Below, one piece after another: positions 7,395 through 44,340 of a DNA stretch of 44,523 bases. A model generated the notes under the pieces. That model had not been told where the DNA came from, did not search any database, and saw nothing but the letters and a program-made list of their open reading frames with translations. The DNA is from Clostridiales bacterium GWD2_32_19 (lineage in GTDB: Bacteria; Bacillota; Clostridia; Lachnospirales; UBA12420), in the NCBI GenBank assembly GCA_001795385.1, contig MGOU01000015.1:1-44523 (forward strand). Direction: 5' to 3'. Made by a program: the position numbers and the translations under genes. The stretch's first letter is position 1. The number at the start of each line of letters is the position of its first letter.

Positions 7395-7615
7395 AAAAAA
7401 CTCGTCCCATGAAGAATCCTAAACTCAGGATTTTAATCATGGGACGAGTTTTCACCCGCGGTACCACCCAAATTCAAATCATAATTAACAATTATGATTT
7501 ACACTTTAATTTCATTCGCTCAAGGACCATATTCAGTAGTTTTCACTTTCTCCTTCTCAACACACGGAGTTCTCTGTAAAAGCTTCCATTACTTACTCTT
7601 CCCTTCATTGCTTTT
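7395..7615 (-). promoter_or_regulatory. T-box riboswitch, methionine specifier
   Basis: Read on the minus strand, the leader contains a GAAGAGTA AG-bulge-like segment near 7600, a specifier region with ATG (Met) at 7530-7528 in the context GAATATGGTCC, and the T-box GGGTGGTACCGCGGG at 7469-7455. The T-box is followed by a terminator: a stem of about 13 bp (7438-7450 with 7398-7410) ending in T6. Uncharged tRNA-Met should pair with the specifier and T-box, favour the antiterminator and allow metG transcription. This is the classic Firmicutes arrangement. Confidence 0.93.
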
Positions 7616-7621
7616 ATATAA

Positions 7622-11323: not shown

Positions 11324-11356
11324 AGGGACGGTTCCTTCTTTCTAGGAACCGTCCCT
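11324..11356. repeat. GGGACGGTTCC palindrome, copy 1
   Basis: Perfect 12-bp inverted repeat, AGGGACGGTTCC against GGAACCGTCCCT, with 9-nt loop TTCTTTCTA. Copy 2 at 11491-11523 has the reverse complement of this loop, so the two lie in opposite orientation. The same GGGACGGTT core builds the terminator at 31740-31788. Confidence 0.9.
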
Positions 11357-11490
11357 TTTATTAAACCTCCCCGCAGCAGAGCTGCGGGGTATTGACCCTG
11401 AGAGATTAAATTTGGTATTAATAAACTTTTGTATTATAAGCTTTATCTTTTTAAATTTTTTATATCTTATTTTATATTTGTTTTTCTCAT
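11357..11490. other. Noncoding spacer between two inverted palindromes
   Basis: The 11221-11566 gap holds no gene. Between the two palindromes is one further hairpin, CCCCGCAGC (11369-11377) with GCTGCGGGG (11381-11389), followed by A/T-rich sequence without a reading frame, tRNA or recognisable RNA motif. Confidence 0.6.
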
Positions 11491-11523
11491 GGGGACGGTT
11501 CCTAGAAAGAAGGAACCGTCCCC
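11491..11523. repeat. GGGACGGTTCC palindrome, copy 2 (inverted)
   Basis: GGGGACGGTTCC (11491-11502) and GGAACCGTCCCC (11512-11523) with loop TAGAAAGAA. It lies 43 nt after the mutS2 stop and may also act as its terminator, although no T tract follows on the minus strand. Confidence 0.9.
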
Positions 11524-35442: not shown

Positions 35443-35511
35443 AACAAGAATCACGAGAAACGCACGAATTTTTCATTTCCCTTATTGCATGTTTACACTC
35501 TAATTATTGGG
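35443..35511. repeat. 69-bp direct repeat, copy A
   Basis: Matches 37196-37264 in the same orientation with three mismatches (core CACGAGAAACGCACGAATTT). The two copies enclose the prepilin-like gene. Confidence 0.92.
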
Positions 35512-35575
35512 TTCAATCAATCACCTCTATCTGTCATTGCGACATCCTAAGACTTGGTTTTTGTATATGCTTTTT

Positions 35576-37123
35576 CTAATTTATATTCGTTATAGTATAT
35601 GCCGTGGCTGCTGTAGTTCCATTTTCTGTCCCCAATATTATATTTGACGAGCTTAAATATAACGCTGGGCGAACTCCTTGTATCCCGTTATAGGCAACAT
35701 CATTGAATACCAACCCATCTTGACTAACCTTACGAACATGACGAGAGTAGTCTGCATATGCATCTCTCAGCCAGTAGTACCATGTTGTTGTATCATTTAC
35801 CGGTCCAGCTGTATCATTTTCTATTACATCTGTTGTTACATATGACTTATAATATGTTGTTTTATCTGATAGTGAATTGTTGCTATATACATACTCGTTT
35901 AGTTCTTTAATATTTAAAATAAATATACTATCTGGTGTTGATGTGTCTTTATATCTTGCTGTATCGTAGTTTTCTACTGCTGTAATTGGATTAGTTTGAT
36001 TATATGTGTGATTCGTACTGCTACTCCCAATTGTCTTGATACTGTCATCTACTGATGCTAACATTGATTTATGCGTTACTGATATTATCTTATCTCTCTG
36101 TACCTGTGTGAAGTTACTGTCTGATAGGAATCCTGCTTCTGTATCATATGAGTTCAAATTAGATGCTACATGTAAGCTATCTGGTTTTTGTGTACTGTAT
36201 TCTACCGTGGCTAACGTACTATTTAGCCATTCACGCAAGTTACTCTTATCCCAGTTATTGTTTCCATATGTCTTTCTACCTTCATCTACTTCTGCATCAT
36301 CTGCTGCATCAAACGATTTTAAACATATTATTCTATCACTAAACAACATTAATTCCTGCGTTCCATCACTGTTTATATCCTCTTTTCCTATTACCCTCCA
36401 TATTATCGGTTTTGTTAGATATTTCCCAAACTGTATATAATCTCCCACTACTATCGTTTCTCCAGTATTAGCTAATACTATATCTATACTTTCTCCTATA
36501 CTCGCTACACCTAGAGTGGATATTGCCGCTCCCTCTGGTACACTTATGCTTTGCGTTTGTCCTACACCTGTGTTCGTAACAACCATTGTATAAACTGCTC
36601 CACTACCTTCTAATGCTTCTGGTGCTCCGTTTTCTACTATGATGTCAGCATCTTCAAAACCTGTTACTAGTACGCTAAATGTAAATGTGTATGTTATACT
36701 TGTTGCATTTGTCATATTAGGTGTACTGGCTGTTATAACCAGTGTTGGTGCTACTGGTCCGTTTAGTTTTACTATCGGTATACCTGCCACTACTTGTACT
36801 GCGTATGTACTCAGTGAATTTATTGGGTATTCTGGTCTTTCTTTTATTAACCCTTCTGCCACCATTGCATCTATTATGTCATCCTGATCAGCTACTGATT
36901 CATGACTCAGCATGTACATCTGTGCCTGGTTTTGCAGTGTTCTCATATTTTCATTGTGTGCTACTTGCTTTGCCTCATTACTTTTGTTTATAAATATTGG
37001 TATCGCTATTATTGAGAGCACTGCTAGTATTACTAAGACTGCTAAAAGTTCAAGCAAAGTAAAACCTTTACGCCTTAAACCTCGTCTTCTTGTTTTTCTA
37101 CTTTCCTTAGATAATATCATCAT
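35576..37123 (-). CDS. Prepilin-like protein with Ig-like and DUF6273-like domains
   Basis: 515 residues. A type IV prepilin signal is clear: a basic leader (RKTRRRGLRRKG), cleavage after Gly20, then FTLLELLAVLVILAVLSI with Glu at +5. The next 90 residues are pilin-like helix and spacer. Residues about 130-215 form a bacterial Ig-like repeat (PTLVITASTPNMTNATSITY then a SVPEGA end). Residues about 228-505 resemble DUF6273, a surface domain with C-type-lectin-like fold, marked by WRVIGKED, YGNNNWDKSNLREWLN, YYWLRDAYADYSRHVRKV and GVRPALYLSSS. The whole would be a membrane-held or pilus-tip pseudopilin with an adhesin-like head. AAAGGGAG precedes the ATG pair. No pilus assembly genes are nearby; 69-bp direct repeats flank it. 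Confidence 0.8.
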   Translation of the reverse strand: MMILSKESRKTRRRGLRRKGFTLLELLAVLVILAVLSIIAIPIFINKSNEAKQVAHNENMRTLQNQAQMYMLSHESVADQDDIIDAMVAEGLIKERPEYPINSLSTYAVQVVAGIPIVKLNGPVAPTLVITASTPNMTNATSITYTFTFSVLVTGFEDADIIVENGAPEALEGSGAVYTMVVTNTGVGQTQSISVPEGAAISTLGVASIGESIDIVLANTGETIVVGDYIQFGKYLTKPIIWRVIGKEDINSDGTQELMLFSDRIICLKSFDAADDAEVDEGRKTYGNNNWDKSNLREWLNSTLATVEYSTQKPDSLHVASNLNSYDTEAGFLSDSNFTQVQRDKIISVTHKSMLASVDDSIKTIGSSSTNHTYNQTNPITAVENYDTARYKDTSTPDSIFILNIKELNEYVYSNNSLSDKTTYYKSYVTTDVIENDTAGPVNDTTTWYYWLRDAYADYSRHVRKVSQDGLVFNDVAYNGIQGVRPALYLSSSNIILGTENGTTAATAYTITNIN

Positions 37124-37195
37124 TTCATCAGACTCCCTTTAATTCATATAATGTAATATTATATCGAATTATAGATTCATTGTCAATGTCTTTCG

Positions 37196-37264
37196 AACAA
37201 GAGTCACGAGAAACGCACGAATTTTTCATTCCCCTTATTGCATGTTTATACTCTAATTATTGGG
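37196..37264. repeat. 69-bp direct repeat, copy B
   Basis: Same orientation as copy A with three mismatches; begins 73 nt upstream of the prepilin-like start codon. Confidence 0.92.
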
Positions 37265-37771: not shown

Positions 37772-38105
37772 TTATGCTACTAGCTTTCTAATGTCTCCTG
37801 CCTTGCCTGGCAATACTTTACCTTTTGCATTTTCAAGCATCATTATCAGCCCTATCCCTACAAATACATTCATTTTTTAATCCCCGTATTGTATGATTTT
37901 TAAAACATAAATCTCTGTCTATTCTTCCATTTACTCTTTCTACGCTTGTTCTTTTATTGTATAGTCTTATATATTTTTTACTTTCTCTCGCTACTTGTGT
38001 AAATATTCTTTTATCTATTTCTCGCTTTATTCTTATTCCTGTCTTAGCTTTGCATTCTTTTTGGTATTTGCAGCTTTTACAAGTGCAAGGTGCTTTATAT
38101 TTCAA
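37772..38105 (-). pseudogene. DDE transposase C-terminal fragment, frameshifted
   Basis: The first frame reads a Cys-rich stretch (CTCKSCKYQKECKAK), then REIDKRIFTQVARESKKY and YNKRTSVERVNGRIDRD, the C-terminal catalytic region of IS1182/IS5-like transposases (the R.SVER.NGR motif holds the last acidic residue). A frameshift in an A run after IRGLK breaks it; the next frame continues MNVFVGIGLIMMLENAKGK and ends at 37772, as intact family members do. The upstream portion is also out of frame (EEDRYSLK). The gene is dead. Confidence 0.75.
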
Positions 38106-43920: not shown

Positions 43921-44340
43921 CGGAAAAACTCGAAGGTAACCACGTAGGGACCAGCCCGTTGATGTTTATAACACTTACTACAGTGAATATATTATTATTG
44001 TAATTAAAGATATAATATATATACTTTTTTTCAAAAAAAAGTAACAAAAAAACTCAACCCCCTAACCCCCATCCTTGGGTGATAGCCACAAGAACTCGTT
44101 AGTTTCGCGTTCGCTGCACTCTACTCAAACAGTTTGCGGATGAGGAAAAGGGATTAATTTATTTTTATTTAGGGGCTGTTGACGGTTTGCCCTTTCCGTT
44201 CAAAGTACTGAACGCCGGGACGTACCTGTAAGTCATATAACTTATGTAGAGTGATTCAAACTAATTAGTATTTATATTTGGTTTGCCTCATTGTCTTTAT
44301 CTATTTGATAATGACATAATCTAGGGGACTGTATGTGGAC
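43921..44340 (+). other. Noncoding stretch, possible structured RNA
   Basis: No supported gene. On the plus strand, nested complementarity is visible: AGGTA (43934-43938) with TACCT (44223-44227), CAGCCC (43952-43957) with GGGCTG (44173-44178), and hairpins CGTTCA/TGAACG (44197-44214) and TAAGT/ACTTA (44229-44244). G+C is higher in these islands than in the A/T-rich surroundings. The middle part (44050-44150, CCCCCTAACCCCC and GTTTCGCGTTCGCTGCACTC) looks like dispersed intergenic repeat material. RNA identity not recognised. Confidence 0.35.

Follow-up and report, generated by a model that had tools for sequence, protein, structure and literature searches.

Targets of phage diversity-generating retroelements (DGRs) that have a DUF6273 domain are known, namely the tentaclins (PMC10743442) and those of Faecalibacterium prophages (PMC11792537). 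In Bacteroides, DGRs diversify the tip pilins of type V pili (Macadangdang et al., as cited in PMC12632263), and DUF1566 targets with putative pilin structures are mentioned in a passage of PMC6642488. Multiple targets in one genome, incomplete loci, nearby MITE-like repeats and FGE-type heads characterize the DGRs of Thiohalocapsa PB-PSB1, for which diversification in trans has been considered (PMC10907252). No published case of a DGR-diversified type IV prepilin was found in the open-access literature; subscription papers and preprints lay outside this search, and novelty is therefore provisional.

Here, we analysed a stretch of 44,523 nucleotides from Clostridiales bacterium GWD2_32_19, hereafter referred to as the window. 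Within an assembly of 1.97 Mb in 47 contigs, 97.6% complete, it is contig C15, and it contains a gene in which a prepilin is joined to a DUF6273 head. With a probability of roughly three in four, this gene belongs to a prepilin family whose DUF6273 and FGE-like heads are DGR variable proteins, the window copy being likely a former target and the 69-bp repeats around it unrelated. The pilin DGR is similar to the phage DUF6273 DGRs in that the variable region (VR) is located at the C-terminal end of DUF6273 and in the order of Avd, template (TR), reverse transcriptase (RT) and DUF6273 protein. However, the phages carry the head on receptor-binding proteins, while here it is found on type IV prepilin paralogues, whose DGR also differs from those of the phages in having a MutS_I-bAvd fusion as its accessory protein. 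As in Bacteroides, the binding end of a pilus would be diversified, but the type V pilins are lipoproteins with another assembly route, whereas the proteins described here have a type IV prepilin signal. The DUF1566 targets share a CLec fold and a tie to surface structures; they belong to a different domain family, and the pilin type is unstated in the passage that mentions them. The Thiohalocapsa loci are alike in all the features listed above, but their targets are putative conflict-system sensors and not pilins.

Prepilins with lectin-like heads

The gene, on the (-) strand at [35576-37123], encodes 515 amino acids, and the open reading frame and Pfam bear out the original prediction that it combines a prepilin signal, an Ig-like repeat and a DUF6273 head. 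The N_methyl motif for type IV prepilin cleavage and methylation covers residues 17-40 [37004-37075] with an E-value of 1e-6, the bacterial Ig-like domain Big_12 covers residues 124-209 [36497-36754] with 6.8e-8, and DUF6273 covers residues 259-491 [35651-36349] with 2e-15. All three matches exceed their Pfam cut-offs. The N-terminal region has the class III signal GFTLLE and a hydrophobic helix, and it also matches TIGR02532 above cut-off. In the predicted structure the head is of fair confidence (block pLDDT mostly 64-94), while the linker and Ig region are poor (mean 62, pTM 0.57). The head has the fold of phage DGR variable proteins. The closest solved structure in a fold search is 9qa6, a DUF6273-containing IgA peptidase, and the viral matches include several DUF6273 proteins. 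DUF6273 has been likened to the C-type lectin fold (PMC10743442); the fold search with our model returned no other lectin.

Related genes are found in three genomes of the genus. In the window genome, DUF6273 pilins are present on C15, the window itself, and on C17 (C17b), and further ones are cut by contig ends on C17 (C17a), C47 and C44, that on C44 having no stem. Both C20 and C33 encode prepilins with FGE-like heads, and C10 encodes a similar head; the FGE-sulfatase matches of these heads are under the Pfam cut-off. The expectation that varied heads would be carried on a shared pilin stem thus holds for two head types. More such pilins are found in the genome of a sister species, and related ones in G002, a third member of the genus. 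Several contigs end within a pilin stem or an RT remnant, as is expected of repeated sequence, and C11 overlaps exactly with C17 (60 nt) and with C47 (44 nt). The contig ends had suggested that alternative heads are shuffled on one stem. This was rejected; the upstream RT remnant also terminates C45, so that two loci with a common repeat suffice and no shuffling of heads is needed. C43 carries genes of PilB and PilC type (T2SSE, T2SSF) together with prepilins, and C8 encodes a prepilin peptidase (Peptidase_A24); the assembly of these proteins into pili would be consistent with such genes. The head is also used outside pilins: a 744-residue protein on C20 [L027:1790-4024, (-)] has two DUF6273 matches and no prepilin motif.

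Three other features of the window were recorded. A tandem array of the 9-bp unit TGTTGGTTC, with at least 8 perfect periods, is located at [2054-2190]. The segment [11325-11522] holds a perfect 31-bp inverted repeat with arms 136 nt apart, each arm being nearly palindromic. The sole Rfam match is a T-box leader at [7437-7617] on the (-) strand.

Flanking repeats

Two direct repeats, [35443-35511] and [37196-37264], enclose the gene. They are 69 nt long, identical at 66 positions and outside the open reading frame, just as first described. The second copy was recovered in a genome search with an E-value of 3e-26, and the pair is therefore not due to chance. The left repeat is in fact longer than 69 bp and runs to about 35566, as in the copies on C44. 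According to the genome search and synteny, [35443-35566] on the (+) strand is a copy of a dispersed intergenic element made of the 69-bp repeat and its continuation. The right copy, also (+), consists of the first part of the element only and ends at 37264. Strong core copies number five in the genome: the window has two, C44 has two in opposite orientation, and C28 has one. Of segment 87-124 of the element, about 25 copies exist in the window genome and several in that of the sister species.

The original prediction took the gene for a cassette that is exchanged whole by recombination between these repeats. Two near-identical direct repeats do flank the gene, and a further copy lies about 1 kb from the DUF6273 pilin on C44. 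However, no pilin adjoins the copy on C28 or one of those on C44, and one part of the element is present about 25 times, so that the repeat is in part found at sites unrelated to pilins. Furthermore, the sister species (UBA12072) has an orthologue with 78% amino acid identity that likewise lies between mfd and the gene for UDP-GlcNAc 2-epimerase, and synteny comparison found the 69-bp repeats absent at this locus. The intergenic homology between the two genomes reaches to about the start of each repeat. Given a repeat-free orthologue and dispersed copies, the cassette reading fails, and we regard it as barely credible. In the simplest reading, the repeats would be later insertions in the window lineage, unrelated to the DGR; whatever their origin, they do not delimit a unit of exchange. 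Variation of the heads would instead have come from mutagenic retrohoming by a DGR together with gene duplication.

The transposase debris that had been noted upstream of the pilin gene corresponds to a DDE transposase remnant of 90 amino acids [37833-38105, (-)], identified from its open reading frame and Pfam. In the sister species only, the gap between pilin and epimerase has extra genes, including a transposase-like ORF [L081:10262-11440, (+)].

Retroelements and their pilin targets

An intact DGR with a DUF6273 pilin is found on contig C38 of the sister genome (G001), arranged as a gene for a MutS_I-bAvd protein, the TR, the RT and a prepilin-DUF6273 gene in succession. The accessory protein, of 226 amino acids [L086:2970-3650, (-)], is a fusion that matches MutS_I with 7.7e-14 and bAvd with 3.8e-8, the latter at a score of 34.2 for a cut-off of 40. 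The RT has an open frame of 406 amino acids with the motifs IGNMTSQ and YVDD; it matches RVT_1 with 1.4e-17 and conforms to the DGR motif [LIV]GxxxSQ. The TR reads SYAPNSYNVRNVNTDGTVNNNNAYNGNNGVRPA and has AAC or AAT codons at most variable positions. Compared with it, the C38 VR is changed at 16 of 28 adenines vs 2 of 71 other bases (p 3e-9; here and below, the adenine-bias tests assume independent bases), and mutagenic retrohoming may be active at this locus. The VRs on C15, C40, C11, C2 and other contigs of the sister genome show the same adenine bias relative to the C38 TR. This TR is present as a single copy in the sister genome, and a DNA search did not find it in the window genome; the other pilins were therefore probably diversified in trans or duplicated later.

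In the window genome, three siblings of the window gene were compared with the foreign C38 TR. Changes fall at 16 of 30 adenines vs 8 of 79 other bases in C17a, at 15/30 vs 8/79 in C44, and at 12/30 vs 11/79 in C47; between C17a and C47, the greatest divergence is located in the VR. A DGR of this genome itself lies on C33, where an RT (IGNYTSQ, YMDD) and a 128-bp TR lie behind the gene for a prepilin with an FGE-like head. Over these 128 bp, TR and VR have 23 differences, 22 of which are at TR adenines. However, the RT [L033:433-1464, (-)], which is the sole RT of DGR type in this assembly, has its frame broken by one in-frame TAG, and this counts against our main reading. The TAG may be a real inactivation, a population variant or an assembly error. 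On C17 and C11, pilins have an RT remnant immediately upstream, and another such remnant terminates C45. No DUF6273 TR was found in the window genome by pattern or DNA search, and the DUF6273 DGR seems to have decayed there. Two other RT candidates were set aside: the RT of C27, with its QGGxxSP motif, points to the group II intron type, and an apparent match in the window at [43986-44052] is AT-rich non-coding sequence.

A covarying 15-bp hairpin with the loop region CCCT(A/C)GA(T/C)GGG is located 76 nt past the stop of most recent targets, with loops at L012:18819, L023:3874, L024:1312, L025:2548 and L086:173. Eight of its 15 pairs are changed on both sides, and all cells are paired. Published DGR target hairpins have stems of 7-10 bp and 4-nt GRNA loops, 4-34 bp from the VR, and the pilin hairpin is unlike them. 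It may be a DGR target hairpin or a terminator. It is missing behind the window gene and behind one adenine-biased gene (C66).

Comparison with the template places the corresponding variable region of the window gene at residues 455-487 [35663-35761, (-)], where it has decayed relative to the C38 TR. The protein is changed at 12 of 17 codons that contain an adenine in the template vs 2 of 16 others (p 9.5e-4), a pattern that could also reflect the fold, as these codons may simply specify exposed, tolerant positions. Relative to the orthologue, the VR core is identical at 10 of 28 residues, while the rest of the protein is identical at 390 of 487 (p 1e-6). At the nucleotide level, adenine bias is absent from the window VR (13/28 adenines vs 30/71 other bases, p 0.44), the template used being from another species. 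Third bases of templated N codons are kept at 2 of 11 positions, compared with 8-11 of 11 in the siblings with a clear signature.

The missing nucleotide bias, measured with a foreign template and with no DUF6273 template in the gene's own genome, weighs against our main reading and would fit a gene that was never a DGR target, with ordinary diversifying selection acting at the binding face and only the paralogues recruited. No RT remnant adjoins the window gene, which is also in keeping with this. However, DGR targeting is clear for siblings that share its head, and the changes gather at template-adenine codons, exposed though these positions may be; we consider a gene that was never a target to be rather improbable. 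The opposite alternative, in which the gene is currently an active target whose template, with other codons, is missing from the assembly, would account for the hypervariable VR, and the assembly is broken at DGR-linked repeats. Nevertheless, the window gene and its orthologue also differ at the third bases of variable codons, which counts against this alternative since adenine mutagenesis would leave these bases alike if both genes drew on one template. Moreover, the genome has no TR-like second copy of the window VR and the hairpin of recent targets is missing behind the gene, making present activity unlikely. Most likely, to judge from these sequence comparisons, the window gene is a retired target, in which variation persists at the templated residues, the DNA has drifted and no matching template is found in the assembly.

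A head shared with phages

Searching viral contigs with the C38 RT gave two loci, L200 and L201, where a bAvd-type protein or another ORF at its position comes first, then a TR, an RT and a DUF6273 protein; both adjoin phage tail genes. Over about 90 bp, the two viral TRs share 77% and 81% identity with the pilin TR, and within the viral loci TR and VR are 85-89% identical. Elsewhere in the class, 28 RT loci were scanned by motif, and no prepilins were found beside related RTs within flanks of about 1.5 kb, a range that misses targets lying farther away. We propose, at even odds, that a Clostridia lineage captured a phage-type DGR (Avd, TR, RT and DUF6273) and re-mounted its receptor-binding head on type IV pilins, one template and RT locus diversifying many of them in trans, with the window gene among the older copies that were retired. 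The direction of transfer between phage and bacterium is itself part of this conjecture.

The mechanism that we envisage would begin with the prepilin peptidase, which would cut the prepilin. The cut pilin would then be built into a type IV pilus or set at its tip, so that the head is displayed outside the cell, where it may bind. In copying the TR RNA, the DGR RT would insert random bases at adenines; the resulting cDNA would take the place of the VR at the 3' end of the pilin gene, probably also in trans at the duplicated copies. The stem would thereby stay constant while the binding face changes.

Pilus tips varied by DGRs are already known for type V pili. If the present reading is true, targeted RT mutagenesis would alter what type IV pili bind, and would do so through a binding module that these pili have in common with phage receptor-binding proteins. 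The ways in which a single retroelement supplies many targets, and in which targets are retired, could then be tested.
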